The notes under the pieces: model-generated
The model's input: only the letters and a program-made list of their open reading frames with translations
Told to the model about the DNA's origin: nothing
Databases searched by the model: none
From: an uncultured Pseudorhodobacter sp.
Lineage (GTDB): Bacteria; Pseudomonadota; Alphaproteobacteria; Rhodobacterales; Rhodobacteraceae
Length of the DNA stretch: 64,000 nt
Direction of reading: 5' to 3'
Assembly (NCBI GenBank): GCA_913062925.1
Contig: CAJXWJ010000002.1
Coordinates: 1 to 64,000 of the forward strand
Shown: piece by piece, positions 8,593 through 37,907 of the stretch
How the letters are laid out: each line of letters begins with the position of its first letter
Position numbering within the stretch: position 1 is the first letter of the stretch
Program-made: the position numbers and the translations under genes

Positions 8593-8593
8593 A

Positions 8594-9402: not shown

Positions 9403-10473
9403 CTAAACCGGCAGCGGAGCAGGAAAAACCACCCCCTCAAACAGCTTGCGCGCCGTGCGCAGGGTGCCCGCCGCCACAATCTTGCCCGCCTGCACCTCCA
9501 AAAAGACCTCTGCCGCACCGCTGGGATGCTCGACCGCAAAGCGTCCGTCTTGCGGCAGCTTTGCCAGCGCCGCGGCCGGCCCCTTGCCTAAAAGGCAGGC
9601 CGAGGCCAGGCTGACCGCCGCCAAAACCCCGATCCCCGCGTGCAGCCGATGCGGGATGAGGCTGCGGGTGTGGATCGCCCCACCTCGGATCGGCGGCGAA
9701 ACCAAAACCATCTTTGGCACCGATTGCGCGGCAACATCGCCCAGCCGCATCAGCGGCCCTGCCTGCAAGCGAATGGCCTCGATCCTTGCGCGCAGCGCGG
9801 TGTCTGCCTCCAGCAGATCAAGCGGCTCTTGACCGGTCAGTCCAAAGTCTGCCGCCGCCATCACCACGATCGGCATGCCATTGTCGATCAGCGTGCAGTC
9901 CAGACCCTCGATCTGGTCAACCTCTTGTCCCGTTGGCAGCATCGCGCCACAAAGCGCACCTGCAATGCCGGTAAACAGCAGCGGCACGGGGGCGTGATGG
10001 CCGGGCACACCGTCAATCTGCGCGCCCCCCTGATAGCTGACGCGGCGCTTTGGCGTGGCCACCCGCGCCACCGCCACCTCACCGGTGTTCAGCATATGGA
10101 TGCGCACCGGCGTCACCCCCTCTTGCGCCGCAAGCAGACCGCGCTCCAACGCGGCTGGTCCAACCGCGGCCAGAATATTGCCACAGGGCTGGGCGGTGCT
10201 GACCAAGGCCTGATCGACAAAGACCTGCAAGAACAGATAGTCCACATCGGCATCAGACCGGCTTGAGGCAGCAAGGATCGCCACCTTCGAACACAAAGGA
10301 TCGCCGCCGCCAATGCCGTCAATTTGTCGAGGATCAGGGCTGCCCAACAACCGCAGCAACAGCGCATCGCGCGCGGCAGCTGCGGCAGGCAGATCGCTTG
10401 CCAAAAACACCGCAGCCTTCGATGTCCCTCCCCGCATCCAAAGGCAAGGGATGCCCGCTTCGGTGTCAGACAT
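9403..10473 (-). CDS. galD: 4-oxalomesaconate tautomerase (PrpF family)
   Basis: The 356-aa protein belongs to the PrpF fold, beginning [22 protein letters not shown], with the conserved [17 protein letters not shown] and [13 protein letters not shown] segments. In gallate catabolism GalD interconverts the keto and enol forms of 4-oxalomesaconate, which is needed when ring cleavage yields this compound directly. It overlaps the stop of the galC-like gene by 8 nt (ATGTCTGA), so it is the last gene of the galB-EDO-galC-galD operon. The context with GalB- and LigK-type genes makes tautomerase more likely than the aconitate isomerase PrpF. Confidence 0.88.
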
Positions 10474-11137
10474 AGGTCAAGCCCTTGGCCGCAAGCGCGG
10501 GCCGCATGTCGTATAAATCCAGCCCCAGCACCCCGGTCGCAAGTTTGGCGCGCTTGGCCTCTTCGGCCGCAAGCCGGCTGTTGGCCGCGGCCAGCACCGC
10601 CTCGGCCTCATCCAAGCGCACCACCACCACGCCGTCATCATCCGCGACAATCACATCCCCCGCTGCAATCGCCTGCCCCGCACAAACAATGGGCACATTG
10701 ACCGAACCGAGGGTCTGTTTGACCGTGCCCTGCGCGCTGATCGCCCGCGACCAAACTGGAAACCCCAGCGCGGTCAAATCGCGCACATCGCGCACGCCAG
10801 CCTCAATCACCAAACCCCGACAGCCCCGCGCCATGGCCGAGGTGGCCAAAAGATCGCCGAAATAGCCGTTATCACAAGGGCTTGTCGGCGCCAGCACCAG
10901 AATGTCGCCGGCTTGCAGTTGCTCAATCGCCACATGCAGCATCCAGTTATCGCCGGGGGGGGCGCTGATGGTCACGGCGCTGCCGGCGATCTGGGCGCCG
11001 GCATAGATCGGGCGCAGCGTGCTGTGCAAACAGCCCTTGCGGCCCTGCGCCTCGTGGACGGTGGCAACGCCGGCGCGCGCCAGCCCCTCGATCACAGCGC
11101 GCGGCGCGCGGGGAATGGATTGTACCACAACGCTCAT
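10466..11137 (-). CDS. ligK: 4-carboxy-4-hydroxy-2-oxoadipate aldolase / oxaloacetate decarboxylase
   Basis: A 223-aa member of the RraA-like class II aldolases (LigK, GalC or ProA). It splits 4-carboxy-4-hydroxy-2-oxoadipate into pyruvate and oxaloacetate. Recognisable family stretches are [11 protein letters not shown], the [13 protein letters not shown] loop, IEAGVRDV (the R-D of the active site) and [12 protein letters not shown]. The start at 11137 gives the usual ~225 aa; an upstream in-frame ATG at 11311 would run into the preceding gene. There is a 110-bp gap to the upstream dioxygenase gene, which may hold a secondary promoter, and an 8-nt overlap with galD downstream. Confidence 0.9.
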
Positions 11138-11247
11138 GCCGCACCGCCGCCGCTTTGCGCAGCCTTGGCCAGCGGAGGGAACAAAGGAAAGGTCTGGGTT
11201 GACGTCTGGGGTGACGTTTTGGGCAAACAGCAACTTTGAGCCATGCA

Positions 11248-12198
11248 TTACTCCTTTGCGGCTGGCGGGGTGCCATGGGTGTGAAAAGTCTCGATCGTCT
11301 TTAGGCCCCAAGCCTGGCCACGTTTGCGCTCGGCTTCAGTCCAGACCACTGGCTCCCAATCGGGTGCAAGGATCAGCCGCGCGCCGGCATTGGCAAGTTC
11401 GACCCGATTTCCCGCAGGCTCCCAGACATATAAAAAGAAAGTGCCTTGGATGGCGTGCTTATGCGGGCCTGTCTCGATGTGGACACCGTTTTCCAAGAAC
11501 AGATCTGCGGCGCGCAGAATGTCTTCACGGCTGTCGGTGGCATAGGTGATATGATGCAGCCGCGCGAGACCGCCGCTGTGATCTTCGGTGCAGGCAAGAT
11601 CATAGGTTTTGTTGTTCACAGTAAACCAACAGCCCCCGGTGCGGCCATTGTCCAGTTGGATCATCTCGGTCACGCGCGAGCCAAGGCACAGCTGCATGAA
11701 CCGCCTGAATTCGGCGACATCCGCGGCCAGAAGGTTCAGATGATCAATCCGGCGCGGTGCCGCACCTTGGCCGGTGTAGCGGCTGGCCATGTTCTTCAGC
11801 GCAGGCCTATCCTCGCCCGTGGCACGATACTTGACGCTGTCCCAATAAAGCTCGAACACATGGCCAAAGGGGTCTTCAAAGCGAAAGGCGCGGCCATGAC
11901 CCAGATCGCCCTCGACCCAACCGTGGCAGAGATAGTCCGAGGCCTCGATCACCGCGACCTGATCGGCCAGCGCCTGCGCCGAGGCCGCACGATAGCCGAT
12001 ATGACCCACGCCAGTGCTGTGGTGACGGGTCAGCTTTAGGCTGTGAAGCTCGTAATCATCCCAAGCACGCAAATAGGCGCTGTCGGCACTGCGCGCCGAA
12101 AGTTTCAGGCCATAGACCCGGGTAAAGAAATCAAGGCTTTCATCAAAGCGATCGGTATAAAGCTCGACATGACCCAGATGCGCAACCGCGCCGCTCAC
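11248..12198 (-). CDS. Type I extradiol (VOC-fold) dioxygenase, catechol 2,3-dioxygenase-like
   Basis: The 316-aa protein has two VOC modules: an N-terminal half beginning [24 protein letters not shown] and a C-terminal half beginning [10 protein letters not shown]. Candidate Fe(II) ligands are H153, H215 and E267 (GNRVELAN), with the spacing of BphC and XylE. It should open a catecholic ring next to the hydroxyl pair. The start is a GTG at 12198, overlapping the galB stop as GTGA; an ATG at 12357 lies inside galB. Its position between galB and ligK is unexpected, because gallate and protocatechuate ring cleavage is normally done by unrelated LigAB-type enzymes. The substrate is unknown; a trihydroxybenzoate or related catechol giving 4-oxalomesaconate is inferred from the neighbours. 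Confidence 0.85.
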
Positions 12199-12932
12199 AG
12201 CACATCCACCGCGCGCGGGAACATCGACTGAAAGCCCTCGGCATAAAGCGCCGCGCGCCCGCCTGACTGGCCACCTGAATTGCGCTGAAAATGGTTGGCG
12301 CGATTTTGCGCGACGCGGGTGTAGAAATCCCACAGATGCTCTTGGCCTTCCATACATTCGATGGCAGCGCGCTTTTTGTCCCAGACCGGCGTGATGTCCA
12401 AAAACACATCCGGTTTCCAGCCCATCTGCTCGGTCTGATGCGGCTCGAACAGGTATAATTGCGGCGCGCCCAACACCTTTTGCCCCGGATTATGCCCCCA
12501 AGCCTGCGCGATCATCCGGCATTCCAGCGCCACTTGCGTCGCATACATATGATCGGTGTTATAGGGGTCAAAGGCGCTGTGGCTCATCATAAAATCCGGC
12601 TGGACGTCGCGGATAATATCGACCAGCCGCAGCTTGTCGGCCTCGGACAGCCGCAAGGGATAATCGCCCAGATCCATGCAGATCAGCGCCTGAACCCCCA
12701 GCGCGCGGGCGGCGGCCTCGGCCTCGGCACGGCGGGCAGCCTTGACGCGGTCAAGCGTCATATCAGGCTTTTTCCACAGCTTGGCGCTTTCGCCGCGTTC
12801 CCCAAATGACAGGCAAACTACGGTGACATGGTAGCCCATTGCTGCATGTAGCGCGATGGCCCCGCCACAGCGCCAGACGAAATCTGCGGCATGAGCCGAG
12901 ATGATAAGGGCGGTCTTTGGCGCAGGGCTCAT
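12195..12932 (-). CDS. galB: 4-oxalomesaconate hydratase (PIG-L/LmbE fold)
   Basis: A 245-aa PIG-L-fold protein with the metal-binding segment SAHAADFVWRCGGA near the N-terminus. PIG-L proteins are usually deacetylases, but GalB of Pseudomonas putida is a member that hydrates 4-oxalomesaconate to 4-carboxy-4-hydroxy-2-oxoadipate. The placement immediately before LigK- and GalD-type genes argues for GalB. The start at 12932 has AAGGAG seven bases upstream; an in-frame start at 13013 has no such site. It is the first gene of the operon and divergent from a LysR-type gene. Deacetylase activity remains a less likely alternative. Confidence 0.85.
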   Translation of the reverse strand: MSPAPKTALIISAHAADFVWRCGGAIALHAAMGYHVTVVCLSFGERGESAKLWKKPDMTLDRVKAARRAEAEAAARALGVQALICMDLGDYPLRLSEADKLRLVDIIRDVQPDFMMSHSAFDPYNTDHMYATQVALECRMIAQAWGHNPGQKVLGAPQLYLFEPHQTEQMGWKPDVFLDITPVWDKKRAAIECMEGQEHLWDFYTRVAQNRANHFQRNSGGQSGGRAALYAEGFQSMFPRAVDVL

Positions 12933-13148
12933 GGCAGTCTCCTTGGCTGATATGCCGATAAAGATGCGCGCGCATTCCGGCCTTTGCCAATTCAGAACCA
13001 CGCGCATTGCCATAAGTTTTTGCTATAGACAGTTGCATTACTGCGCAGGCTTTGGCAGCCTTGCACCGTTGCAAACAAGTGAGGCCGCGATGAAAAACAG
13101 GAGGCTTCTTGACTATAACGCGGCCGCATGCACCCGCGCCGCGGGCAA

Positions 13149-14327
13149 ATGATGAGAGCCAGCCTGCGCCATCTGCGGCTTTTGCTGGCCCTGATCGAGA
13201 CAGGCTCGGTCACTCAGGCCGCAGCGCAGCTGCGTGTCACGCAGCCCGCAGTTTCAGCGGCCTTGCAGGGCATTGAGACCGCGCTTGGTACCGCGCTTTT
13301 TGACCGCCGGCCCAAGGGCTTGATCCTGACGCCGGCGGGTGCGGCGGTTGCCTTGCGGCTGCGGCGCGCGCTGGGTCTTTTGGACCCGGCGCTTTGCGAC
13401 CTTAACCCGCAGCTGAAGCGGACCGCGACGCTGGCGCAGCTGACCGCGCTGATCGCTGTCACCGAATGCGAAAGCTTTGCCGCTGCCGCCCGCCACTTGG
13501 GGCTGGCACAACCCAGCGTGCATCGCGCTCTGCGCCAATTCGAGGCGGCAGCCGGACGCAGCCTGTTCGAGCGCAGCGCCAAAGGCATGACCGCAAGCCG
13601 CGCAGTGCGCCAACTGGCCACCGCCACCCGTCTGGCCCTGACCGAGCTAGAGCAAGCCGAGGCCGATGTCGCGGATCTGTCAGGCCGCGAGGTGGGGCGG
13701 GTGGTGATTGGCGCCATGCCGCTTTCGCGCTCGCTGCTGCTAGGTCCGGCCATCGCGCGGTTTCGCGGCCACTGGAGCGCGCTGCCGATCCGCATCACCG
13801 AGGGGCACTACGACAATTTGGCCGAAAGCTTGCTGCGCGGCGAGGTGGATATGCTGGTGGGGGCTTTGCGCCCCCCCCTGCCCGATTTCAACCAAGAGAT
13901 CTTGTTGCAAGATGCAATGGCAATCGTCGCGCGCCCCGATCACCCTTTGGCGCGCATCACCGCGCCTGCGGTCGAACTGACGCGCTGGCCCTGGGTGGTG
14001 GCGGGCATGGGTACCCCTGCGCGCGATCATTTCACCGCGATGTTCGCCGCAGCCCAGCTGCCCTGCCCGACGCGCTTGGTGGAAACCGGCTCGATGACAC
14101 TGCTGTGCGATGTGCTGGGGCGGACGGATCATCTGGGCTTTGTCTCGGCCCTGCAAGCCCAACGCGACATCGCCAATGGCAGGCTGCTGCGCCTGCCCTA
14201 TCAGACCGCCCAAGGCACTTTGCGCCCGATTGGGCTGACCACACGGCGCGACTGGCATCCGACGCGGGCGCAAAACGATATGATCGCAGCCCTACGCGCC
14301 GCGGTTGCCGAAATCGCGTCCGATTAG
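13149..14327 (+). CDS. LysR-type regulator with two tandem HTH domains
   Basis: The 392-aa protein is about 90 aa longer than a usual LysR. There are two winged-HTH segments: residues 6-65 (HLRLLLALIETGSVTQAAAQ...) and residues 94-150 (QLTALIAVTECESFAAAARH...LFERSAKGMTAS). A single LysR substrate-binding domain follows from about residue 185. It is divergent from galB across about 216 bp, so it is the likely activator of the galB-EDO-ligK-galD operon, responding to an aromatic acid or ring-cleavage product (inference). The start could be 13149, 13152 or 13128; none has a strong ribosome site. It ends overlapping the MarR gene tail to tail by 4 nt. Confidence 0.88.
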   Translation: MMRASLRHLRLLLALIETGSVTQAAAQLRVTQPAVSAALQGIETALGTALFDRRPKGLILTPAGAAVALRLRRALGLLDPALCDLNPQLKRTATLAQLTALIAVTECESFAAAARHLGLAQPSVHRALRQFEAAAGRSLFERSAKGMTASRAVRQLATATRLALTELEQAEADVADLSGREVGRVVIGAMPLSRSLLLGPAIARFRGHWSALPIRITEGHYDNLAESLLRGEVDMLVGALRPPLPDFNQEILLQDAMAIVARPDHPLARITAPAVELTRWPWVVAGMGTPARDHFTAMFAAAQLPCPTRLVETGSMTLLCDVLGRTDHLGFVSALQAQRDIANGRLLRLPYQTAQGTLRPIGLTTRRDWHPTRAQNDMIAALRAAVAEIASD

Positions 14328-14933: not shown

Positions 14934-15692
14934 CTATCTTGGCGGCAGCCGCACGCCACCATCCAGCCGGATCACTTCGGCGTTCAGATAACTGTTGGTC
15001 AGGCACAAAAGCACCACATCGGCAAATTCGCTGGCAGCGCCCAGCCGGTTTGGAAAGGGGATCGAGGCCGCAATACCGGCTTGCACCTCGGCGGGCAGCT
15101 CTGCCAGCAAGGGCGTCAGAAAGATGCCAGGGGCCACTGTATTGACGCGAATGCCAAAGCGCGCCAGCTCGCGCGCCGCTGGCAGCGCCAAAGAGACGAT
15201 CCCCCCTTTCGAGGCCGCATAAGCCGCCTGCCCGATTTGGCCATCAAAGGCCGCAACCGAAGCCGTGTTGACGATCGCACCGCGCGCACCATCGGCGTCG
15301 GGCGCATTGGTTTGCATCCGCGCCGCCGCAAGGCGCATCATATTAAAGGTGCCAATCAAATTGACCTGAATGGTGCGGGCAAAATCGGCAAGCGGCATCG
15401 GCCCCTCGCGGCCCACAATCCGGCTGGCGCCGCCAATGCCTGCGCAATTGACCAGCCCGCGCAGAGGCCCCTTCGCCGCAATCGCACCATCAAGCGCCGC
15501 GCCCGCCGCCTCGTCGGTGACATCAAGCGCCAAGCCATGGCCGCCAACCGATACCGCCACCCGATGCGCGGCCTCGGCGTTGCGGTCAATCACCGTCACC
15601 TGCACGCCACGCTCTGCCAGCGCGCGCACGACCGCCTCGCCCAAGCCCGAGCCGCCACCGGTGACGGCAATATGTGTCTGAGCGATCTGCAT
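14934..15692 (-). CDS. SDR dehydrogenase, 3-hydroxy-3-arylpropionyl-CoA dehydrogenase
   Basis: A 252-aa classical short-chain dehydrogenase: cofactor motif TGGGSGLG near residue 10, NAG-type NCAGIGG, catalytic S and Y-A-A-S-K ([10 protein letters not shown]). It resembles type II 3-hydroxyacyl-CoA dehydrogenases (HSD10 type). Its ATG overlaps the ligase stop as TGATG, so the two are translationally coupled. In the CoA-dependent beta-oxidative route of Agrobacterium fabrum and Corynebacterium glutamicum, an SDR oxidises the hydroxy-arylpropionyl-CoA to the beta-keto form; the same four activities are clustered here. A start at 15743 was rejected because it lies inside the ligase gene. Confidence 0.85.
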
Positions 15693-17530
15693 CACGGCCT
15701 CCGCTTCCAGTCGGCCAGCAGCAAGGCGGGATCTTCTGACCACAGCGACGCCACCAGATCCGCCCTTTCGCGCAACACCGCGCGCTGATTGACCGAGCCT
15801 TTGTCGGTGACCTCGCCCCTGTCAAAACTCAGCGGCTGTTGCACCACTAAGGCCGCCACCACCCGCGCCGCACTGCCCGTCGCGGCACGCGCATGTGCGC
15901 TCAGACGGTCGCGCAGCGCAGCAATCACAGCGGGATGGCTGAACACAGGCTCTTCCCCGCCCGCAATCTGGGCCAAAGCGGCGCGGTTGGGCAGCAAAAG
16001 CGCGCGCAGATCGTCTTTATTCTCGCCCGCAATCACCGCATCCGAAATCAAGCCCGCCATCGCATCAACCAAGCCCGCCCGCAACGCGCCCACCGCCACC
16101 CAAGTGCCGGTGGAAAGCTTGAAATTCTCGGCCAAACGGCCATCAAAGATAAAGCCCGCCGCAGGCTCACCCTCAACCGCATAGCGCAGCGCATCGCCAA
16201 AGATGTAAAAGCCATCCTCGTCAAAAGCCGCCGCGGTAAGCTCGGGGTTGCGCCAATAGCCCGGCGTGATCGAGGGGCTTTTGACCCGCGCCTCAAGCTT
16301 GCCCTCTTTTGGCACCAGCTTTAATGTCACCCCCAAGGCCGGCACGCCAATATTGCCGGGGCGGTCTTTTTTCTCGCTGTAATATAGCGCAAAAGGGCCA
16401 GTCTCGGTCGCCCCCAGACCCGAGACAATCGGCACGCCCCCGCCAATTTGGCGCGCAGCCACTGCGGTTAGGCGATCCCAGATCGGTTGGCTCATACCTG
16501 CGCCCGCATACATCATCATCTTAAGCCGCGAAAAAAAGGTGCTGACCAAAGTCGCATCCTGCTCCATCGCATCCAGCAGAAATTGATAGCCGACCGGCAC
16601 GTTGAAATACCAAGTCGGCGCAACCTCGCGCAGGGTGCGGATGGTGCGGGCGATCCCATCAGCGGTGGGGCGGCCATCGTCGATGTAATAGGTGCCGCCG
16701 TGATAAATCGCCATATTGAAGACCTTATTGCCGCTGGCAGTGTGGTTCCAAGGCGCCCAATCCACCAAAACCGGCGGCTCGTCGGCCAGAAACGGATAGG
16801 CTTTGGCCACCATTGCCTGATTGGAACACAGCATCCGCTGGGTCTGGATCACGGCCTTGGGGCTGCCAGTCGTGCCCGAAGTGAACAGGAATTTGGCAAC
16901 TGTATCAGGGCCAACGGCTGCATGGGCGGCCTCCATCTCGGCCGAGGGCGGGGTTTGCAGCAGATCTTGGTACGACAGCGACACGCGCTTTTCGCTGGTC
17001 CCCGTTAGGCTGACCAGCGCCACATCCAAGCCCAGAACCGCCTCGATTGCGGGCAGGAATTTGGCTGCATGATCGGCAAAGACCATCCCGGGGGTCAGCT
17101 GGGCGACCACTGTCGACAGCTTGCCGCGATCCTCACCCGAAAGCGCATAGGCTGGCGATAGCGCTGCCGAGGGAATACCGACATGCTGCGCGCCAAGCGC
17201 CATCAAAGCATGTGCAAGACTGTTGCCCGACAAGATCAGCAAGGGCCGCTCGACCGAAAGCCCCTGCGCAAGCAATGCCGCGCCAATAGCGCGGATCGCG
17301 CGCGCGCCCTGCCCATAGCTGACACGCTGCCATTCGCCCTGGGCATCCCGCTCGGCCATCCAGATCCGCTCGGGATCAATTTCAGCCCAATGCAAAAACC
17401 GCGCGGTCATGCAACGCGGCCAATCGGGCAAAGCCTCGCGCTGCCAGATCAGCACCGACCCATCCGCACGGGTCTCGCTTACCAGCTGCCCCCCCTCGAA
17501 AGCTTTTGCTTGCACCAACTCACTTTGCAT
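15692..17530 (-). CDS. Feruloyl/4-coumaroyl-CoA ligase
   Basis: The 612-aa adenylate-forming enzyme has the AMP-binding P-loop FLFTSGTTGSPKAV, an A5-type GLGATETGP motif and the A8-type hinge region after FIFDGRLAENFKL. Length and pattern (TWYFNVPVGYQFLLDAME, GYWRNPELTAAAFDEDGFY) match feruloyl-CoA synthetases of the Fcs/CouB group. It activates ferulate, p-coumarate or caffeate with ATP and CoA. The start at 17530 follows GGGGGATGTT; an earlier ATG at 17572 lacks this. It leads the operon ligase-SDR and is divergent from the crotonase gene. Confidence 0.92.
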   Translation of the reverse strand: MQSELVQAKAFEGGQLVSETRADGSVLIWQREALPDWPRCMTARFLHWAEIDPERIWMAERDAQGEWQRVSYGQGARAIRAIGAALLAQGLSVERPLLILSGNSLAHALMALGAQHVGIPSAALSPAYALSGEDRGKLSTVVAQLTPGMVFADHAAKFLPAIEAVLGLDVALVSLTGTSEKRVSLSYQDLLQTPPSAEMEAAHAAVGPDTVAKFLFTSGTTGSPKAVIQTQRMLCSNQAMVAKAYPFLADEPPVLVDWAPWNHTASGNKVFNMAIYHGGTYYIDDGRPTADGIARTIRTLREVAPTWYFNVPVGYQFLLDAMEQDATLVSTFFSRLKMMMYAGAGMSQPIWDRLTAVAARQIGGGVPIVSGLGATETGPFALYYSEKKDRPGNIGVPALGVTLKLVPKEGKLEARVKSPSITPGYWRNPELTAAAFDEDGFYIFGDALRYAVEGEPAAGFIFDGRLAENFKLSTGTWVAVGALRAGLVDAMAGLISDAVIAGENKDDLRALLLPNRAALAQIAGGEEPVFSHPAVIAALRDRLSAHARAATGSAARVVAALVVQQPLSFDRGEVTDKGSVNQRAVLRERADLVASLWSEDPALLLADWKRRP

Positions 17531-17706
17531 AACATCCCCCAAGAAACACAGCGCCCCGCCCTGCGGCAGCATTTAGTTATCAAACATAACAGTAATGAAC
17601 CCGAAAGATCTTTGCAACAGGTGTTTACAGCATAATATTTATATCATATAACTAATAATGAGAACAAGCGGAACGCCTCTTTGGAGGCAGGAATCAGAGG
17701 TGCAGC
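17531..17706. promoter_or_regulatory. Divergent promoter region of the hydroxycinnamate genes
   Basis: A 176-bp A+T-rich gap between the leftward ligase operon and the rightward crotonase-amidohydrolase pair. The stretch at about 17630-17660 is rich in TAT/ATA and partly self-complementary, a plausible site for the MarR protein encoded at 14324-14803. A purine-rich GAGGTG precedes the crotonase ATG. Confidence 0.5.
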
Positions 17707-18495
17707 ATGGACGGAAGCATGGATCAGTTGGTAACCTACGAGCTGCGCGACGAAATCGCGCTGATCGGGTTGAACCGTCCGGCCAAGCGAAATGCGGTCT
17801 CAGATCGCGTCGTCGAGGCGCTGAACCTTGCGATTGAGCGCGCTCAACTCGAAGCGAAGGCAGCTGTTATTCATGGCGAGGGGACGCATTTCTGCGCTGG
17901 TCTTGACCTGGCAGAGCATTCCGAAAAGCCGCTGATCGCAGCGGTGCAGGGCTCGCGGCGCTGGCATCGGATCTTTGACGGCATCGAGCGCGGCGGCATC
18001 CCCTTTGTGGTGGCCCTGCAAGGCGCGGTCGTTGGTGGCGGCTTTGAACTTGCCGCCGCAGCGCATGTGCGCGTGGCAGATGAAACCGCCTTCTTTGGCC
18101 TGCCCGAAGGCACGCGCGGCATTTTCGTCGGCGGCGGCGGTTCGGTACGGATCGCGCGGCTGATCGGCACCCAGCGCATGGGCGATATGATGTTGACCGG
18201 TCGTACCGTCTCGCCCGTGCAGATGGAGCAATGGGGCGGCGTCAGCTATGTTGTGCCAGCAGGCCAAGCGCTGGAGCGCGCCATCACCCTGGCCAAAGCC
18301 ACCGCGCAAAACGCACCGATGTCGAATTACGCCATCATTAACGCCCTGCCCCGCATCCGCGATATGTCCTCTGAAGATGGTCTTTTCGTCGAAAGCCTGA
18401 TGTCGGCCCTGACGTCAGTGACCCCCGAGGCCACCGAGCGGCTGCGCGCGTTTTTGGAAAAGCGCACCGCCAAACTTGCAGCGCCCACGGAATAA
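17707..18495 (+). CDS. Enoyl-CoA hydratase/crotonase acting on hydroxycinnamoyl-CoA
   Basis: A 262-aa crotonase-fold protein with the oxyanion-hole segments GTHFCAGLDLAE and GAVVGGGFELAAAAHVRVAD, followed by AFFGLPEG. It should add water to feruloyl- or coumaroyl-CoA. In the retro-aldol route the same kind of enzyme releases vanillin; here the adjacent SDR and amidohydrolase favour the hydration-then-oxidation route. It starts at 17707 (an alternative ATG at 17719 would drop four residues). The next gene begins 9 bp after its stop. Confidence 0.87.
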   Translation: MDGSMDQLVTYELRDEIALIGLNRPAKRNAVSDRVVEALNLAIERAQLEAKAAVIHGEGTHFCAGLDLAEHSEKPLIAAVQGSRRWHRIFDGIERGGIPFVVALQGAVVGGGFELAAAAHVRVADETAFFGLPEGTRGIFVGGGGSVRIARLIGTQRMGDMMLTGRTVSPVQMEQWGGVSYVVPAGQALERAITLAKATAQNAPMSNYAIINALPRIRDMSSEDGLFVESLMSALTSVTPEATERLRAFLEKRTAKLAAPTE

Positions 18496-18504
18496 GGCCG
18501 CGCC

Positions 18505-19380
18505 ATGAACCTTGACGACATCATCGCCATCGACTTTCACACCCATGCCGAAGAGCCGTGCAATTGCCACCGCGACGACGGCTATAATGACTTTCAGGCC
18601 GGTATGGCGGCCTATTTCAAAAACCCCGCCGGCGCAGATGGCATGTTGCCCACCGTGCCGCAAACCGCCGCCTATTACCGCGCGCGCAAGATCGCGGCGG
18701 TGATCTTTGGCGTCGATGCCGAACGCGAAACCGGCTTTCACCGCCACAACAACGAAGAAATCGCGCGGCTTGCAGCGGAAAACAGCGATATTCTGATCCC
18801 CTTTGCCAGCATCGACCCCGCCAAGGGCAAGCTTGGCGCGCGTGAGGCGCGGCGATTGGTGCGCGACTTTGGCGTGAAGGGCTTCAAGTTTCACCCCACC
18901 ATGCAGGGGTTTTTCCCCAATGACCGCATGGCATATCCGCTTTATGAGGCGATTGCCGAAGAAGGCGCGATTGCATTGTTTCACACCGGCCAAACCGGTG
19001 TTGGCTCGGGGATGCGGGGCGGCATGGGGATGCGGCTGAAATACTCGAACCCCATACACATTGACGATGTCGCGGTAGATTTCCCCGATATGACCATCGT
19101 GCTGGCGCACCCCTCCTTCCCTTGGACCGAAGAGGGGCTTGCCGTGGCCCAGCACAAACCCAATGTTTATATTGATATGTCGGGCTGGTCGCCAAAATAT
19201 TTCCCGCAAATCTTTGTGCATTACGCCAATACCATCCTTAAGAAAAAGATGCTGTTTGGCTCGGATTGGCCGGCAATCACGCCAGACCGCTGGCTGGCCG
19301 ATTTCGCTGACCTGCCGATCAAAGACGATGTGCGCCCACTGATCTTGAAAGAAAATGCGCGCCGTATCCTGAAGATGTAA
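18505..19380 (+). CDS. Amidohydrolase-family metal hydrolase, aryl beta-ketoacyl-CoA cleavage candidate
   Basis: A 291-aa TIM-barrel metal-dependent hydrolase (COG2159 type). Metal-site candidates are H12 and H14 (IDFHTH), H160 (LFHTG), H202 (LAHPSF) and D254 (FGSDWP). Equivalent proteins sit in hydroxycinnamate operons of Corynebacterium glutamicum (PhdC) and Agrobacterium, where they are proposed to split the aryl beta-keto-CoA intermediate to the benzoate. Here it is co-oriented with the crotonase and next to the ligase and SDR, so the same step is inferred. It is not a good match to the 2-pyrone-4,6-dicarboxylate hydrolase LigI. Confidence 0.8.
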   Translation: MNLDDIIAIDFHTHAEEPCNCHRDDGYNDFQAGMAAYFKNPAGADGMLPTVPQTAAYYRARKIAAVIFGVDAERETGFHRHNNEEIARLAAENSDILIPFASIDPAKGKLGAREARRLVRDFGVKGFKFHPTMQGFFPNDRMAYPLYEAIAEEGAIALFHTGQTGVGSGMRGGMGMRLKYSNPIHIDDVAVDFPDMTIVLAHPSFPWTEEGLAVAQHKPNVYIDMSGWSPKYFPQIFVHYANTILKKKMLFGSDWPAITPDRWLADFADLPIKDDVRPLILKENARRILKM

Positions 19381-19388
19381 TCTCTGCA

Positions 19389-19432
19389 TGTATACAGGGC
19401 GCGCACACCCTGCTAGCCTTAACTTGTATACA
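19389..19432 (+). promoter_or_regulatory. Two TGTATACA palindromes at the GntR gene
   Basis: TGTATACA occurs at 19389-19396 and again at 19425-19432, 36 bp apart centre to centre, the second just upstream of the GntR start. FCD-type GntR repressors often bind such short palindromes. Two further copies precede the LigM-like gene. Confidence 0.7.
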
Positions 19433-19443
19433 TGAGGACAAAG

Positions 19444-20175
19444 ATGGCAGGCTTGGAACGAACCTCTACCCATGCGCAGCGGGCCTTGATCACATTGCGC
19501 AAACGCATTTTGGGCGGCGCTTACCCGGGCGGAACCCGCCTGTTCGAAGTGGCGCTGGCCGAGGATCTGGGTATTTCGCGCACGCCGGTGCGCGATGCGC
19601 TGCAACGGCTGGGCGCCGAAGGGCTGCTTGACCGCGCGCCGGCTGGCGGATTTGTGGTGCGCGGCTTTGCGGTGCGCGATGTGGTCGACACCATCGAGCT
19701 GCGCGGCGTACTCGAGGGCACCGCCGCCCGTTTGGCCGCAGAGCGCGGCGTTTCGGCCGATCACCTAGCCCAAGCCCGCAGCATTCTGCATCAGATCGAC
19801 GCATTGTTCTTAGTGCAATCCTTTGATATGGAGGCATATTCAAATTTTAACACCCAGTTCCACCACCTCTTGGCGCAGCTGTCGCAAAGTGCGGTTTTGA
19901 TCCGGGAAATTGACCGCATCACCGCCCTGCCCTTTGCCTCGCCCTCGGCCTTTCTTGACGACCAATCACGGCAGGCCGAGCTGGTCAAAACCCTTTCGGC
20001 AGCGCAGGGTCAGCACCGCGCCCTGATCGAGGCAATCGAAGCCCGCGAGGGGTTTCGCGCCGAATCACTGGCCCGCGAACACGCCCGCGCCGCAAGACGC
20101 AACGTCGAATTCCTGCTCTCACATGAGGCTGCGCTGCGCGAAGGCGTGCAAAGCTTGGCCATCCTTAGCTCCTAG
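19444..20175 (+). CDS. GntR-family (FCD) transcriptional regulator
   Basis: A 243-aa protein with an N-terminal wHTH (LITLRKRILGGAYPGGTRLFEVALAEDLGISRTPVRDALQRL) and a C-terminal FCD-type helical effector domain with conserved histidines (FHHLL, QHRALIEAIEAR). It probably senses an organic acid and controls itself and the downstream demethylase and ring-cleavage genes through TGTATACA sites. The start at 19444 is preceded by GAGGAC; the ATG at 19432 overlaps an operator copy and is less likely. Confidence 0.88.
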   Translation: MAGLERTSTHAQRALITLRKRILGGAYPGGTRLFEVALAEDLGISRTPVRDALQRLGAEGLLDRAPAGGFVVRGFAVRDVVDTIELRGVLEGTAARLAAERGVSADHLAQARSILHQIDALFLVQSFDMEAYSNFNTQFHHLLAQLSQSAVLIREIDRITALPFASPSAFLDDQSRQAELVKTLSAAQGQHRALIEAIEAREGFRAESLAREHARAARRNVEFLLSHEAALREGVQSLAILSS

Positions 20176-20286: not shown

Positions 20287-21690
20287 ATGTCACAAAGCCT
20301 GACAACCGCAATCGCAGCCGCGGGCGATCCCGTCACGATGCTGCGCAATTCAAAAGCCGGGATGTATGTCTATCCCGTGGTGGCCCCCGAATTTCAGAAC
20401 TGGCGCAACGAACAGGTCGCTTGGCGCCAAACCGCTGTGCTGTTTGACCAATCACATCACATGGACGAGCTGATCGTCGAAGGCCCCGATGCCACAGCGT
20501 TTTTGTCGCATCACGGCGTGAATTCTTTTGCCAATTTTGATCTAAACCGCGCCAAACATTTCGTGCCCGTGACGCCAAATGGCCATGTCATCGGCGACCA
20601 TATTATTTTCCGCGAGCGTGAGGATAAATATATCCTTGTTGGCCGCGCGCCCACCTCGAATTGGCTGATGTTCTGCGCCGCTTATGGCAAATGGAACGTG
20701 CGGCTTAAATACGATCCACGCAGCCCCAGCCGCCCCGAAGGCGAAAGGGTTTTGCGCGAGCATTACCGTTTTCAAATCCAAGGACCGGATGCGCCTAAAA
20801 TCTTTGAAAAGATGAATGGCGGCCCCGTGCCGGATATTAAGTTTTTCCATGTCGATTGGATCAATATCGGCAGCAAAAAGGTGCAGGCCCTGCGCCACGG
20901 CATGTCCGGCGCACCTGGGCTAGAAATTTGGGGCCCCTATAAGGATAAGGATTACATCCAGTCCACCATCTTGCAAGCCGCGCGCGATGCGGGCGTCAAT
21001 CTGGTGCAATGTGGCAGCCGCGCCTATTCGACCAACACTCTGGAATCAGGCTGGATTCCTTCGCCCTTGCCAGGCATCTATACCGGTGACGGCATGCTGA
21101 AAGACTATCGCGATTGGCTGGGTGCTGACAGCTACGAGTCCGCCGGCGCGATTGGTGGCAGCTTTGTCAGCGACAATATCGAGGATTATTACGTTAATCC
21201 GTTTGAGCTGGGCTATGATTTCTACATTGGCTGGAAAAAAGAGGATTTCATCGGAAAATCCGCCTTAGCCGCAATGAAAGGTAGCGCATCAAACCGCAAA
21301 AAAGTCACTTTCGAATGGAACCGCGAGGATGTGATGAAGGTGATCGCCTCTAATTTTGAATCTGGCGTGCCGTTCAAATGGATCGACTTTCCGCAGCCCA
21401 ATTACGCCTCCTCTAGCGCCGATATGGTGATGTTGGGCGATAAAATGGTCGGGATGAGCATGTTTAACGGCTATTCCTATAATGAGCGCTGCATGCTGTC
21501 TTTGGGCGTTGTCTCGCAAGAGGTGCAGGAAAATGACATCCTGACACTGAAGTGGGGCGAGCCGGAAACCACCGGCAAAACTTCGACCGAGCCGCACCGT
21601 CAGACGGAAATTCGGGTTCGGGTCGCAGCCACCCCCTATGCAGCCGAGGCGCGGACGAATTACGCCGACAGCTGGCGCAGCAGAAGCTAA
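20287..21690 (+). CDS. ligM: Tetrahydrofolate-dependent aromatic O-demethylase (LigM/DesA-like)
   Basis: The 467-aa GcvT-fold protein matches LigM of Sphingobium in length and in many stretches: MLRNSKAGMYVYPVVAPEF, AVLFDQSHHM, VPVTPNGHVIGD, LRHGMSGAPGLEIWGPY, NTLESGWIPSPLPGIYTGD, GAIGGSFVSDNIEDYYVNP and MSMFNGYSYNER. Such enzymes move the methoxyl methyl of vanillate, 3-O-methylgallate or syringate to tetrahydrofolate. The start at 20287 follows GGGAG. It is followed by a terminator and then ring-cleavage genes. DmdA, the DMSP demethylase of the same superfamily, is about 370 aa and does not fit. Whether vanillate, 3-O-methylgallate or syringate is preferred cannot be read. Confidence 0.9.
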   Translation: MSQSLTTAIAAAGDPVTMLRNSKAGMYVYPVVAPEFQNWRNEQVAWRQTAVLFDQSHHMDELIVEGPDATAFLSHHGVNSFANFDLNRAKHFVPVTPNGHVIGDHIIFREREDKYILVGRAPTSNWLMFCAAYGKWNVRLKYDPRSPSRPEGERVLREHYRFQIQGPDAPKIFEKMNGGPVPDIKFFHVDWINIGSKKVQALRHGMSGAPGLEIWGPYKDKDYIQSTILQAARDAGVNLVQCGSRAYSTNTLESGWIPSPLPGIYTGDGMLKDYRDWLGADSYESAGAIGGSFVSDNIEDYYVNPFELGYDFYIGWKKEDFIGKSALAAMKGSASNRKKVTFEWNREDVMKVIASNFESGVPFKWIDFPQPNYASSSADMVMLGDKMVGMSMFNGYSYNERCMLSLGVVSQEVQENDILTLKWGEPETTGKTSTEPHRQTEIRVRVAATPYAAEARTNYADSWRSRS

Positions 21691-21696
21691 GGCAGC

Positions 21697-21729
21697 GGGC
21701 CGTCCCTGCTTTCGGGGCGGCCCTTTTTT
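21697..21729 (+). terminator. Intrinsic terminator after the LigM-like gene
   Basis: GGGCCG-TCCC at 21697-21706 pairs with GGGG-CGGCCC at 21714-21723, with a short loop, followed by six T at 21724-21729. It separates the demethylase transcript from the hydrolase-LigA gene, which begins 16 bp later after a GGAGGGG ribosome site. Confidence 0.85.
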
Positions 21730-21744: not shown

Positions 21745-22782
21745 ATGACAACTTTGCTTTTGATTCCGGGACTTGTGTCGGATGACTTTGTCTGGAGGTC
21801 ATTGCAAACGCTGCGGCCTGCCGTGGTGGCCTGCATCACGCAACACGCCAGCATCCCCGAAATGGCACGGGATCTTTTGACGCGCCACTCAGGCAGGCTG
21901 ATTTTAGCGGGCCATTCGCTGGGCGGGCGCGTGGCGCTTGAGATGGCGCGGATGGCGCCCGGGCGGATCGCGGGGATCGCGCTGCTGAACACCGGCACAC
22001 ATCCCAAACGGGAGGGCGAAGAGGCCAAGCGCCAAGCGATGATTGATCTGTGCAACCGCGACGGCATGGCGGCGCTGGCCGCCCAGTGGGTGCCGGGCAT
22101 GATGAATGCCGAAGCCGTGCCTGATCCGCAGGTGATCGCCAATCTGACGGCAATGGTCTGCCGCATGACGCCCGAAATCCACGAGCGCCAGTTGCGCGCT
22201 TTGCTGGCGCGGCCAGATGCGGCGGCGACGCTGGACTATCAGGGGCCGATGCTGCTGGTCGTTGGTCGCCAGGATATCTGGAGCCCGATTGCCCAACATC
22301 AGGACATTGCCAGAATTTGCCCGCAGGCTCGGCTGGAAATCATCGAGGATGCCGGCCATTTTGCGCCGGTAGAGCAGCCTGACAGTGTGGCAAGACTGCT
22401 GGCCGATTGGGCGCAGGGCGTGGCAGACCGCGATGCTGGCCAAGACCGCATTCCCGACACGCCGCTGTTTGACCGCCCCCGTGCCAACTTGGGCTATGCG
22501 CTGAACAAAATGGCGATGAGCCTGTCAAGCCCTGAGGGGCGCGCGGCCTTTTTGGCCGATGAAGCCGCCTATCTGAACCGCTTTGAGCTGAGCGAGGAAC
22601 AGCGCGCAGCAGTGGCGCGCCGCGATTGGGCCGAGATGGTGCGGCTGGGGGGGAACCTTTTTTATATCCTGAAGATTTCTGCCGTGGACCCAACCCCGAT
22701 CCGCGCCATTGGCGCGGCGCAAGCGGGGATGAGTTTGGATGCATTTCTCGACACAAGACTGGGAAAGGTCACAAATGGCTAG
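21745..22782 (+). CDS. Fusion of alpha/beta-hydrolase and LigA-type dioxygenase alpha subunit
   Basis: One uninterrupted 345-aa frame. Residues 1 to about 228 are an alpha/beta-hydrolase with nucleophile elbow GHSLGG (S58), acid D177 (VGRQDIWSP) and H205 (DAGHFAPVEQP). Residues about 236-345 match the small alpha subunit LigA of protocatechuate 4,5-dioxygenase: LGYALNKMAMSLSSPEGRAA, DEAAYLNRFELSEEQR, ARRDWAEMVRLGGNLFY and AAQAGMSLDAF. LigA is normally a separate ~130-aa protein. LigB overlaps the stop by 8 nt, so the two make a complex. The hydrolase could act on the ring-cleavage product, for example the methyl ester formed from 3-O-methylgallate, as DesC/DesD hydrolases do in Sphingobium (inference). 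Confidence 0.9.
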   Translation: MTTLLLIPGLVSDDFVWRSLQTLRPAVVACITQHASIPEMARDLLTRHSGRLILAGHSLGGRVALEMARMAPGRIAGIALLNTGTHPKREGEEAKRQAMIDLCNRDGMAALAAQWVPGMMNAEAVPDPQVIANLTAMVCRMTPEIHERQLRALLARPDAAATLDYQGPMLLVVGRQDIWSPIAQHQDIARICPQARLEIIEDAGHFAPVEQPDSVARLLADWAQGVADRDAGQDRIPDTPLFDRPRANLGYALNKMAMSLSSPEGRAAFLADEAAYLNRFELSEEQRAAVARRDWAEMVRLGGNLFYILKISAVDPTPIRAIGAAQAGMSLDAFLDTRLGKVTNG

Positions 22783-23614
22783 GTTGATTGGCGGCATCGG
22801 GACCAGCCATGTGCCCTCGATTGCGGCGGCGCTGGATAAGGGTCTGCGCAACACCGACGAATGGAAGCCGTTTTTTGACGGCTATATCCCGGCGCAAGAC
22901 TGGGCAGCGGCCGCAGCGCCTGACATCGCCGTGGTGATCTTTAACGATCACGGCAATGCGTTCTTTTTGGACCGCGTGCCGACCTTGGCTTTGGGCGTGG
23001 CCGAAAGCTATGATCCCATCGATGAAGGCTGGGGGCCGCGCGCAGTGCCGTCTTTTCAGGGGGCTGCGGATTTTGCTTGGCATTTGGCCGATCAGATGGT
23101 GGCGCGGCATTTTGATCCGCTGATTTGCCGCGAATTGCAGGTGGATCATGGCATGCAGGTGCCAATGGAATTGATCTTTGGCAGGCCAGCGGCTTGGCCT
23201 GTCAAGGTGGTGCCGATCTTGGTCAATACCATCCAATATCCGATCCCCACCCCGCAACGGATGTGGGAGTTGGGCCGCGTGCTGCGCGCAGCGATTGAAA
23301 GCTGGCCCACGGATGAAAAAGTGGTTGTGCTGGGCACGGGCGGCCTCTCACATCAATTGCAGGGCGCGCGAGCGGGCTATATCAACCCCGCCGAAGACCG
23401 CAAATGGATCGCCGATATTGGTCCAAACCCCGCACGCTACCGCGATATGACGCGCGAAGACTATGTCGAGGTTTTTGGCTCGGAGGGGGCAGAGCTGATC
23501 ATGTGGCTGGTGATGCGCGGCGCGATGGATAGCCAAGTCAAGACCTTGTTTCGCCACTATTTTGCTCCGGCCTCGATGACCGGCGCCGGCATGGTTTTGT
23601 TGGAGAATCTGTAA
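22775..23614 (+). CDS. ligB: Protocatechuate/gallate-type 4,5-dioxygenase catalytic subunit LigB
   Basis: The 279-aa type II extradiol dioxygenase keeps the LigB residues two positions earlier: Fe(II) ligands H12, H59 and E240, plus the second-shell H125 and H193 that correspond to LigB H127 and H195. It cleaves a catecholic acid next to the hydroxyl pair with O2. The start at 22775 lies 8 nt inside the upstream LigA fusion. There are no LigC (CHMS dehydrogenase) or LigI genes in the window, but GalD, GalB and LigK are present, so gallate or 3-O-methylgallate is a better substrate guess than protocatechuate. Confidence 0.92.
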   Translation: MARLIGGIGTSHVPSIAAALDKGLRNTDEWKPFFDGYIPAQDWAAAAAPDIAVVIFNDHGNAFFLDRVPTLALGVAESYDPIDEGWGPRAVPSFQGAADFAWHLADQMVARHFDPLICRELQVDHGMQVPMELIFGRPAAWPVKVVPILVNTIQYPIPTPQRMWELGRVLRAAIESWPTDEKVVVLGTGGLSHQLQGARAGYINPAEDRKWIADIGPNPARYRDMTREDYVEVFGSEGAELIMWLVMRGAMDSQVKTLFRHYFAPASMTGAGMVLLENL

Positions 23615-23931
23615 TGTATTTTCTCATGATCTGCCCGCATCACCAAGGCCCCCAGATTGCGGCTTTGCGCGATGCCTTGCGCCCGCAGCACCGCGCTTGG
23701 GTGGCCTCGGGTGGCGCCGGTTTGGCCAAGGTGCTGACCGGCTCTGCGCTTTGGGATGATGCGGGCCAAGGCATGGGCAATTTCGGTATTCTGGAGGCCG
23801 CAGATGAGGCCGCCGCCCGCGCCTTTGCCCAAGGCGACCCCTTTGCACAGGGCGGCGTGATCGCGCGGGTTGATCTGACGCGCTTGGCCGATAGTTTCCA
23901 AGCCAGTCGCATCTCACCGATGACGTCTTAA
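23614..23931 (+). CDS. YciI-like small protein
   Basis: A 105-aa ferredoxin-like-fold protein (YCII family), recognisable by the N-terminal strand MYFLMICPHH, R-xx-H (LRPQHRAWV) and the C-terminal E-A-x-xx-A-xx-DP-F-A-x-G-G pattern (FAQGDPFAQGG). Its ATG shares bases with the ligB stop (TAATG), so it is co-translated with the ring-cleavage genes. Members are found in several degradation operons, sometimes as isomerases or dehalogenase-like enzymes. A role in isomerising the ring-cleavage product is possible but unproven. It converges with the hydrolase gene by 4 nt. Confidence 0.82.
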   Translation: MYFLMICPHHQGPQIAALRDALRPQHRAWVASGGAGLAKVLTGSALWDDAGQGMGNFGILEAADEAAARAFAQGDPFAQGGVIARVDLTRLADSFQASRISPMTS

Positions 23932-24755
23932 CCCAAGGATCTTGCGAAATCGGCCAAGGCCTGATTGAACAGCTCGGGCTTTTCGACTTGCGGTGTGTGT
24001 CCGCAGGCATGCACGATCAGCAGCTGAGACTGCGCTGCAAGTCCGGCGGCAATGGCGCTGTGTTTATGTGGTAAAACAGCATCGTCTTTGCCGTGGATCA
24101 CCAAGGCGGGGCAGTCCAGTGCAGACAGGATGCCATGGCTTTTCTGCCAAACCTCCTTGTTTTGCCCGCGCAAAGTAAGGGTCGCACGCAGGGTCGCCAA
24201 GAACGCCGCGGTGCCGCCTTGTTTGGCCACATTGCGGGCAATTGCGGCGCGCAGTCGGGGCGTTACAACGTTTGGATCTTTGACAATCGCCTTGATCTGC
24301 AAGGCAACAGTCTTTTCGCTGGGCTTGTTCAGCGCCTCGCCAACAAAGGGCAGGCTGAACAGGCGAAACACCGGTGTAACCTCTGGCCCAAGCGCGGCAG
24401 CATTTGCCAAAACCACCCCCCGCAGGCGCAGCTGGGTGGCCAGGCGCAACGACACCGCAGCCCCCATAGAATTGCCTACAGCGATAAACCGATCCAGGTT
24501 GAGTGCTTGCGCAAACTTTTGCGCCCAAAGCGCATAGCTGTCGAAATCCTCGGTCTTGCCCGTCATATCCGACAGACCATGATTGGGAAAATCCCATGCA
24601 ATCAGGCGCAGATGCGACAAGCCTTTCGTCATTTGCAGATCCCACATTTCCAGCGAGGCTGCGATCCCATGGCTGAACAGCACGGCAACGCCCGCACCGC
24701 CCGTATCGCGGTAGCGTATCGCACAGCCGTCAATCGTAAGCCAAAGGTCTTGCAT
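23928..24755 (-). CDS. Alpha/beta-hydrolase, enol-lactonase/meta-cleavage hydrolase-like
   Basis: A 275-aa hydrolase with oxyanion motif FSHGIAASLEMWD, nucleophile elbow VGNSMGAAVSLRLA (GNSMG), acid in IHGKDDAVLPH and H in HACGHTPQVEKPE. It starts three bases after the livM stop, so it belongs to the liv transporter operon. Relatives include 3-oxoadipate enol-lactonase and meta-cleavage product hydrolases; pcaD itself is at 34555, so this is a second enzyme. It probably processes the imported ester or an aromatic intermediate (inference). Confidence 0.82.
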   Translation of the reverse strand: MQDLWLTIDGCAIRYRDTGGAGVAVLFSHGIAASLEMWDLQMTKGLSHLRLIAWDFPNHGLSDMTGKTEDFDSYALWAQKFAQALNLDRFIAVGNSMGAAVSLRLATQLRLRGVVLANAAALGPEVTPVFRLFSLPFVGEALNKPSEKTVALQIKAIVKDPNVVTPRLRAAIARNVAKQGGTAAFLATLRATLTLRGQNKEVWQKSHGILSALDCPALVIHGKDDAVLPHKHSAIAAGLAAQSQLLIVHACGHTPQVEKPELFNQALADFARSLG

Positions 24756-34439: not shown

Positions 34440-34554
34440 GCAAAGTTAGGCGCCAAACCTGCTGAATTCATAATCTTATCGGTATAATCTCGCGCGGTTT
34501 ATGCATTTTACAGCTGAAAACCTATCGCATATCTTATGGACAGGAGAGAATTTC

Positions 34555-35340
34555 ATGCAAAGCCTGACGCGGCCGTTTGGCCAACTTCATGTCCAGATTG
34601 ACGGACCCAACACCGCGCCGACGGTGGTCTTTGCCAATTCGCTTGGCACGGATCTGCGGCTTTGGGATCAGGTCTTGCCCTTGCTGCCGCAGGGGCTGCG
34701 TTTTGCGCGCTATGACAAGCGCGGGCATGGGCTGTCCGATCTGGGCGGGGGCAATCAGATTGACGATCACGCCGAGGATGCGATTGCGCTGATCGAAGCG
34801 CTGAACTGCGGGCCGGTGGTCTTTGTGGGCCTGTCGATTGGTGGGCTGATCGGGCAAAGGCTTGCCAGCAAGCGGCCAGATTTGCTGCGCGGACTGGTGT
34901 TGTCGAACACGGCCGCACGGCTTGGAACCGCTGAAAGCTGGCAGGCGCGGATCGAGGCGGTGCAAAGCCAAGGGCTTGAGGCCTTGGCCGAGGGCGTGAT
35001 GCAGCGCTGGTTTGCGCCAGCCTTTCTGGCCAAGCCCGAGCTGGCACTTTGGCGCAACATGCTGCTGCGCACCCCCCCCGAGGGCTATATTGCCGCAGCC
35101 CGCGCGCTGGCAGGTGCTGATCAAACCACGGCCACGGCCAAGTTAGCTTTGCCCTGCCTTGTGATCGCAGGCGCGCAGGATGGCGCAAGCCCGCCCGATC
35201 TGGTGCAGGCCACCGCCGCATTGATCTCGGGGGCAGAGTATCAGCTTTTGCCCGATGCTGGCCACCTGCCCTGCGTCGAGACCCCGCAGGCTTGGGCCGC
35301 TGTTGTTTCGCCCTTTTTGCAAAGGCATTGCCATGACTGA
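34555..35340 (+). CDS. pcaD: 3-oxoadipate enol-lactonase
   Basis: A 261-aa alpha/beta-hydrolase: FANSLGTDLRLWDQVLPLL oxyanion region, nucleophile elbow GLSIGG, acid in AGAQDGASPPD, and H in DAGHLPCVE. This is the PcaD pattern. It converts 3-oxoadipate enol-lactone to 3-oxoadipate. The start at 34555 follows AGGAGAG; an ATG at 34501 lacks a site. It opens the pcaDCHG-BKACE-pcaB operon, and pcaC overlaps by 8 nt. Confidence 0.92.
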   Translation: MQSLTRPFGQLHVQIDGPNTAPTVVFANSLGTDLRLWDQVLPLLPQGLRFARYDKRGHGLSDLGGGNQIDDHAEDAIALIEALNCGPVVFVGLSIGGLIGQRLASKRPDLLRGLVLSNTAARLGTAESWQARIEAVQSQGLEALAEGVMQRWFAPAFLAKPELALWRNMLLRTPPEGYIAAARALAGADQTTATAKLALPCLVIAGAQDGASPPDLVQATAALISGAEYQLLPDAGHLPCVETPQAWAAVVSPFLQRHCHD

Positions 35341-35725
35341 ACCTGCGGCCAAAGGCATGGCCATTCGAAAAACCGTGCTGGGCCAAGCCCATGTCGCCCG
35401 TGCCGAAGCGGCAAAGTCGGCTTTTGACGCGCCGTTTCAGGCGCTGATCACCGATGCCGCCTGGGGCCATGTCTGGGCGCGCGAGACGATCAGCCTGCGT
35501 GAACGCTCGATGCTGACCATCGCGCTGCTGGCAGGGCTTGGCAATGATCACGAGCTGGCGCTGCATCTGCGCGCCACCCGCAACACGGGTGCCAGCGAGG
35601 CCGATGTGATGGAGGCGCTGTTGCATGTCGCCATCTATGCCGGCGTGCCGCGGGCCAATCACGCCATTTCCATCGCCAAACAGGTGTTTGCTGAAATGGC
35701 AGACGCAGAAAGGGATGCCCCATGA
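35333..35725 (+). CDS. pcaC: 4-carboxymuconolactone decarboxylase
   Basis: A 130-aa AhpD-like all-helical protein: [28 protein letters not shown], then [25 protein letters not shown][10 protein letters not shown]. It decarboxylates 4-carboxymuconolactone to 3-oxoadipate enol-lactone, the substrate of PcaD upstream. The ATG at 35333 overlaps the pcaD stop, and its stop overlaps pcaH (ATGA). Confidence 0.92.
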
Positions 35726-36444: not shown

Positions 36445-36445
36445 G

Positions 36446-37899: not shown

Positions 37900-37907
37900 G
37901 ATCCAGC

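Follow-up and report, generated by a model that had tools for sequence, protein, structure and literature searches.

Described systems for 3-O-methylgallate cleavage

In Pseudomonas sp. NGC7, the LigAB-like dioxygenase MgaAB opens 3-O-methylgallate and the alpha/beta-hydrolase MgaC hydrolyses the methyl ester CHMOD (PMC12314914). Deletion of mgaC leads to the accumulation of PDC, and CHMOD has a half-life of about 70 min in its conversion to PDC (PMC12314914). DesC and DesD are proposed to hydrolyse and isomerise CHMOD after LigAB in Novosphingobium aromaticivorans DSM 12444 (PMC6888825, PMC8091115), the organism in which they were actually assigned, and not Sphingobium, where the first-pass annotation of the locus described here had placed them. 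DesC is reportedly only 13% identical to MgaC. The same annotation presented LigA as normally a stand-alone subunit. This is true of LigAB from Sphingobium sp. SYK-6 (1BOU, 1B4U), where LigA is a free 139-aa protein with no hydrolase, but the gallate dioxygenases DesB and GalA carry a LigA-type domain behind LigB within a fused polypeptide.

The window analysed here, a stretch of 64,000 nucleotides from an uncultured Pseudorhodobacter sp. (Rhodobacteraceae), also encodes a LigA domain within a fused polypeptide, but with a hydrolase ahead of LigA and LigB as a separate protein. It resembles the MgaAB/MgaC system in pairing a LigAB-like heterodimer with an alpha/beta-hydrolase and with galD/galB/galC as lower pathway, and differs from it in that the NGC7 proteins are separate, VanAB stands where the window has LigM, and the NTF2-type MgaD stands where the window has a YciI-like protein (PMC12314914). 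DesC and DesD are likewise encoded by separate genes in N. aromaticivorans (PMC6888825, PMC8091115). The window hydrolase is likened to MgaC and DesC by gene context. MgaA itself is reported to be 47% identical to the C-terminus of GalA and only 21% identical to LigA (PMC12314914).

A LigA subunit with a hydrolase attached

The core of the locus consists of three genes, with the catalytic residues of the hydrolase encoded as follows.

21745-22782, + strand: fused hydrolase-LigA gene, a single uninterrupted frame of 345 aa (Pfam, NCBIfam; fused junction also in L021-L027 and L056; two-domain model)
21916-21918, + strand: codon of the nucleophile S58 (GHSLGG), invariant in 29 of 29 aligned hydrolases
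22273-22275, + strand: codon of the acid D177, invariant in 29 of 29 aligned hydrolases
22357-22359, + strand: codon of the base H205, invariant in 29 of 29 aligned hydrolases
22775-23614, + strand: LigB catalytic subunit, class III extradiol dioxygenase (PF02900, PRK13364 over cut-off)
23614-23931, + strand: YciI-like protein, a candidate for isomerising the product of hydrolysis (PF03795)

The alpha/beta-hydrolase occupies residues 1-229 of the fused protein, followed by a linker (about 230-243) and the LigA domain (about 236-345). Pfam models Abhydrolase_1 and Abhydrolase_6 match the N-terminal part. The LigA model PF07746 matches residues 253-338 with 101 bits against a cut-off of 25.3 and is covered nearly whole, a score that identifies a LigA alpha subunit as found in class III (LigAB-type) extradiol dioxygenases. 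The Ser-Asp-His triad S58/D177/H205 within an alpha/beta-hydrolase fold groups the N-terminal part, which also carries P8-G9, with the alpha/beta-hydrolase esterases. The claim that a complete hydrolase and a LigA domain share one 345-aa frame is thus borne out by the open reading frame, its Pfam domains and the invariant triad. The fused protein misses the cut-off for PcaD, the 3-oxoadipate enol-lactonase (TIGR02427, 65.7 vs 255.85 bits), and a genuine PcaD is encoded separately at 34501. AlphaFold2 models two confidently folded domains joined by a weak linker (~231-243, values near 60), with lower confidence at the end of the LigA part. The best fold match of the hydrolase is the Thermogutta esterase 4uhc (Z 30.3), followed by a feruloyl esterase and PcaD, with MenH and BioH lower down; the search probed almost exclusively the hydrolase part, so that the LigA assignment comes from sequence. 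By its modelled fold the hydrolase is predicted to be esterase-like, and the fold does not indicate which ester it would use.

As first annotated, the last 8 nt of the fused gene are shared with LigB, whose ATG lies at 22775, the fused frame ending at 22782. The iron ligands H12, N57, H59 and E240 and the catalytic H125 and H193, whose roles are taken from PMC3962378, are all present in LigB, which places it in class III. LigB 1-277 and residues 233-335 of the LigA part align throughout with the SYK-6 subunits, the iron ligands and the catalytic histidines being conserved and, in the sequence alignment, Ile standing in place of Phe103 of SYK-6 LigA. The residue equivalent to DesB Glu377, which has been tied to gallate specificity (PMC3962378), is Leu309 in the window LigA and Leu also in its close relatives. 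Moreover, LigA falls short of the cut-offs for protocatechuate 4,5-dioxygenase alpha subunits (TIGR02792, 77 vs 108.6 bits; NF009918, 94.2 vs 161 bits), local scores that are not lowered by the extra hydrolase domain. Every general feature tested on the sequence assigns the enzyme to the LigAB-type dioxygenases, but the curated cut-offs do not class it as a protocatechuate alpha subunit, and Leu309 sets it apart from the DesB type.

Distribution and origins of the fusion

A scan of genome contigs yielded 13 relatives (L021-L033). The frame is fused in six of them (L021-L026), at 71-80% identity to the window protein; in L027 the junction is likewise fused and free of stops, with a frameshift inside the hydrolase (about 8001-8998, draft genome). 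That frameshift, which may be an error or decay, shows that such drafts can contain breaks of frame, yet joining of two genes by an assembly or sequencing error has a practically negligible probability, since all seven of these Rhodobacteraceae loci, from several assembly projects, share the same in-frame junction with no stop and no consistent start. A stop or start hidden between the domains, which the first-pass annotation had named as the finding that would undo the fusion, was looked for without success, and the fusion stands. Internal restart yielding free LigA was considered as well and rejected, the junctions of the fused loci having no conserved in-frame start.

L028-L033, which include Roseinatronobacter, Natronohydrobacter and Roseicyclus, encode hydrolase and LigA in two genes side by side, LigA having its own start; several more distant relatives likewise carry the two as separate neighbours. 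In L033 they lie in the same frame, parted just by a stop and a short leader. Nearly all loci of sufficient length keep the order GntR-LigM-hydrolase-LigA-LigB-YciI, the exceptions being L026, with no GntR match, and L032, which begins at the hydrolase. The YciI-like gene is found 3' of LigB in nearly all loci and directly 3' of the hydrolase in L058 and L059. When 395 genomes were searched family-wide, 12, among them the own genome, had a match at E 1e-38.

One of these 12 genomes holds a further fused locus, L056, at 51% identity, whose linker is shorter and whose junction is devoid of start or stop. It is placed among split forms on both the LigA+LigB tree and the hydrolase tree, and AU tests on these trees reject a single clade of fused forms (p-AU 3e-7 and 3e-4, respectively). 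Fused L026 also stands apart from the other seven fused loci on the LigA+LigB tree, although this position lacks support. Rejection of an all-fused grouping means that there were probably at least two fusion events, the second of them known from one draft genome, that of L056; a search of three of its congeners gave no match at E 1e-40. The domains are already known. No description of a hydrolase-LigA fusion was found in the literature searched, and the architecture appears new.

Two features of the DNA around these genes deserve mention. A G+C-rich 10-bp hairpin followed by TTTTTT lies at 21697-21723, between LigM and the fused gene and ~20 nt before the fused start. Single-sequence folds place hairpins of ~10-11 bp, differing in sequence and some devoid of a T run, at the same position in at least 11 relatives (L021-L029, L031, L033), and they may set LigM expression relative to that of LigAB. 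A second, unfused alpha/beta-hydrolase gene (23928-24755, - strand), convergent to YciI and beside a branched-chain-type ABC transporter, is kept near the cluster in relatives.

Pathway genes in the window

The genes annotated around this core are as follows.

9403-10473, - strand: GalD, 4-oxalomesaconate tautomerase (NF033377, 471.8 bits vs cut-off 440)
10466-11311, - strand: LigK/GalC, 4-carboxy-4-hydroxy-2-oxoadipate aldolase (TIGR02798, 360.9 bits vs cut-off 304.5; match from residue 59)
12195-13013, - strand: GalB candidate, PIG-L family hydratase (PF02585; 51% to the L092 gene flanked by galD and galC)
15692-17572, - strand: acyl-CoA synthetase, putatively of feruloyl-CoA synthetase type (NCBIfam PRK12582, 703 bits, under the cut-off of 777)
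17707-18495, + strand: enoyl-CoA hydratase/lyase, crotonase family (family search)
18505-19380, + strand: amidohydrolase PF04909, not LigI-like (family search)
19432-20175, + strand: GntR/FCD regulator (Pfam; conserved beside LigM)
20287-21690, + strand: LigM-type vanillate/3-O-methylgallate O-demethylase, directly upstream of the fused gene (NCBIfam VanMgalDeMLigM, NF047885, 617.7 bits vs cut-off 580)
34501-39233, + strand: pcaD, pcaH, pcaG, a 3-oxoadipate:acetyl-CoA transferase-like gene and pcaB (NCBIfam; PcaD, PcaH, PcaG and transferase over cut-off, PcaB below)

The LigM-like gene upstream and the GalD and LigK genes nearby, pointed out at the outset, all pass NCBIfam cut-offs, while GalB is assigned from its PIG-L family and gene context alone. 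GalD, the GalB candidate and LigK/GalC are encoded 9-13 kb from the fused gene. GalD is found in all 14 genomes carrying the cluster and PcaH in 13 of the 14; with pcaGH, pcaB and pcaD in the window, protocatechuate thus has another route. No LigI-like enzyme able to use pyrone dicarboxylate was found, the one clear PF04909 protein of the own genome being dissimilar to LigI. Given the gal genes in the window, the 3,4-cleavage genes dedicated to protocatechuate and the lack of a LigI-like protein, LigAB most likely serves gallate or 3-O-methylgallate, with products leaving via 4-oxalomesaconate. A search of the own genome for a syringate demethylase returned no DesA and one marginal VanA match that is not convincing; LigM itself might act on syringate.

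Two candidates were discarded: the amidohydrolase at 18505 as LigI, with no LigI match even at E 10, and a gene at 40752-41669 as LigC, which is a relative of sugar dehydrogenases. Relatives of the amidohydrolase, at 61%, adjoin hydrolase-NTF2 pairs in L078 and L079, for which reason a role in the same pathway is possible. Between galC and galB stands a catechol 2,3-dioxygenase-like gene (11248-12357, - strand; 294 bits against a cut-off of 320). Its relatives adjoin hydrolase-LigAB in Roseomonas (60%) and the L092 operon (82%); through such an enzyme, methyl esters may also arise from 3-methoxycatechols. A PcaQ-like LysR regulator of 399 aa (13128-14327, + strand) apparently has two tandem LysR DNA-binding domains, a full-length PcaQ match covering 104-394 and a second LysR match 12-99.

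The hydrolase family in other genomes

The company kept by the hydrolase elsewhere is often similar. In L092, galD-galB-galC-hydrolase-ligA-ligB-yciI form one run, and plasmid pPDL2 carries hydrolase-NTF2-LigB-LigA. Other relatives lie beside LigA/LigB (L034, L035, L063, L071, L072, L080), beside LigM (L037, L064, L073, L076, L077 and, by annotation, L115, L118, L119) or beside NTF2 genes (L036, L078, L079). Some have other neighbours, as in Sphingomonas R1 and Sinorhizobium, and some occur in genomes with no LigB match. Among 398 Pseudomonadota genomes, LigB (E 1e-60) is present in 11 of the 14 that bear the hydrolase and in 28 of the 384 that do not, with a Fisher p of 6e-10 that is optimistic because the genomes are related and two equal-size draws were taken as the same. 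In L095 and L096, LigM, three TRAP-transporter-like genes (named from translated sequences, not by family search), the hydrolase and YciI stand in a row with no LigAB nearby, LigB genes being located elsewhere in the genome.

Proposed function and alternative explanations

We consider it likely, on the strength of sequence and gene context, that this LigAB with its attached esterase converts 3-O-methylgallate to CHMOD and removes methanol from it within the fused alpha subunit. The fused protein would serve a LigAB-type extradiol dioxygenase of class III, with Fe(II), as its alpha subunit and would bring along a serine esterase of its own. LigB and the LigA domain would open the ring of 3-O-methylgallate, formed when syringyl lignin is catabolised, and yield the methyl ester CHMOD, which the S58/D177/H205 esterase would split into methanol and 4-carboxy-2-hydroxymuconate. 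The YciI-like protein, by analogy taking the place of the NTF2 isomerase of NGC7, would probably convert the latter to 4-oxalomesaconate, and GalD, GalB and LigK would carry this to pyruvate and oxaloacetate. Joining both activities would allow CHMOD to be hydrolysed before its spontaneous cyclisation to the pyrone PDC. The analysis shows the fused architecture, intact active sites, their conservation, a probably repeated origin and the pathway context; from these we infer what the enzyme acts on and releases, the role of the YciI-like protein and any advantage of the physical link.

A hydrolase acting on the cleavage product of 3-O-methylgallate, as originally suggested, is the reading best supported by the LigAB, LigM, NTF2, YciI and gal neighbours and by the MgaAB/MgaC precedent, although the lack of a clear syringate demethylase in the own genome weighs on it. 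LigM could also count against it by diverting 3-O-methylgallate to gallate, whose cleavage product needs no esterase. The gal genes would suit gallate equally well, and the closest folds include that of a feruloyl esterase. The esterase might thus act before ring cleavage, releasing the free acid from a gallate ester or another aromatic ester of that sort for a LigAB that is mainly a gallate dioxygenase. We regard this as unlikely, for the pairing of the hydrolase with LigM and with YciI or NTF2 isomerase-type genes fits a step after cleavage, and Leu309 occupies the position that DesB devotes to gallate specificity (PMC3962378). Even less probable is a role in vanillate catabolism as protocatechuate 4,5-dioxygenase, with the hydrolase having a minor or unrelated part: vanillate is also a LigM substrate and SYK-6 LigAB provides the closest solved structures to LigA and LigB, but the pca genes in the same window, PcaH in nearly all cluster genomes, the missing LigI-like protein and the curated alpha-subunit cut-offs that LigA does not reach all speak against it.

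It is quite possible that the chemistry is the one proposed here and that the fusion is neutral, the loss of a stop codon between two overlapping genes having brought neither channelling nor a kinetic advantage over separate MgaC-like and LigAB-like proteins; this would qualify rather than exclude the preferred reading. Hydrolase and LigA are tightly packed neighbours in split relatives, L033 being a stop and a short leader away from fusion; NGC7 manages with separate proteins (PMC12314914), and most relatives do without the fusion, a point against the preferred reading. On the other hand, the fusion probably has at least two origins and is kept, with its triad intact, in a clade of seven loci and in L026. 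Our more tentative proposal, which we hold to be doubtful as it stands, is that the tethered esterase intercepts the unstable ring-opened methyl ester at the dioxygenase, prevents its cyclisation to a dead-end pyrone, and evolved at least twice in Rhodobacteraceae.

Concluding remarks

Since the two proteins are made separately in close relatives, one enzyme complex has probably come to combine two successive steps in the breakdown of syringyl-type lignin acids. Fused genes are a pointer to proteins that work together, and fusion in at least two lineages ties a hydrolase of unassigned function to the ring cleavage of 3-O-methylgallate; it would supply CHMOD hydrolysis in a group of Rhodobacteraceae. 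If channelling holds true, the enzyme would help to control whether syringyl lignin acids flow into central metabolism or to the polymer precursor PDC.
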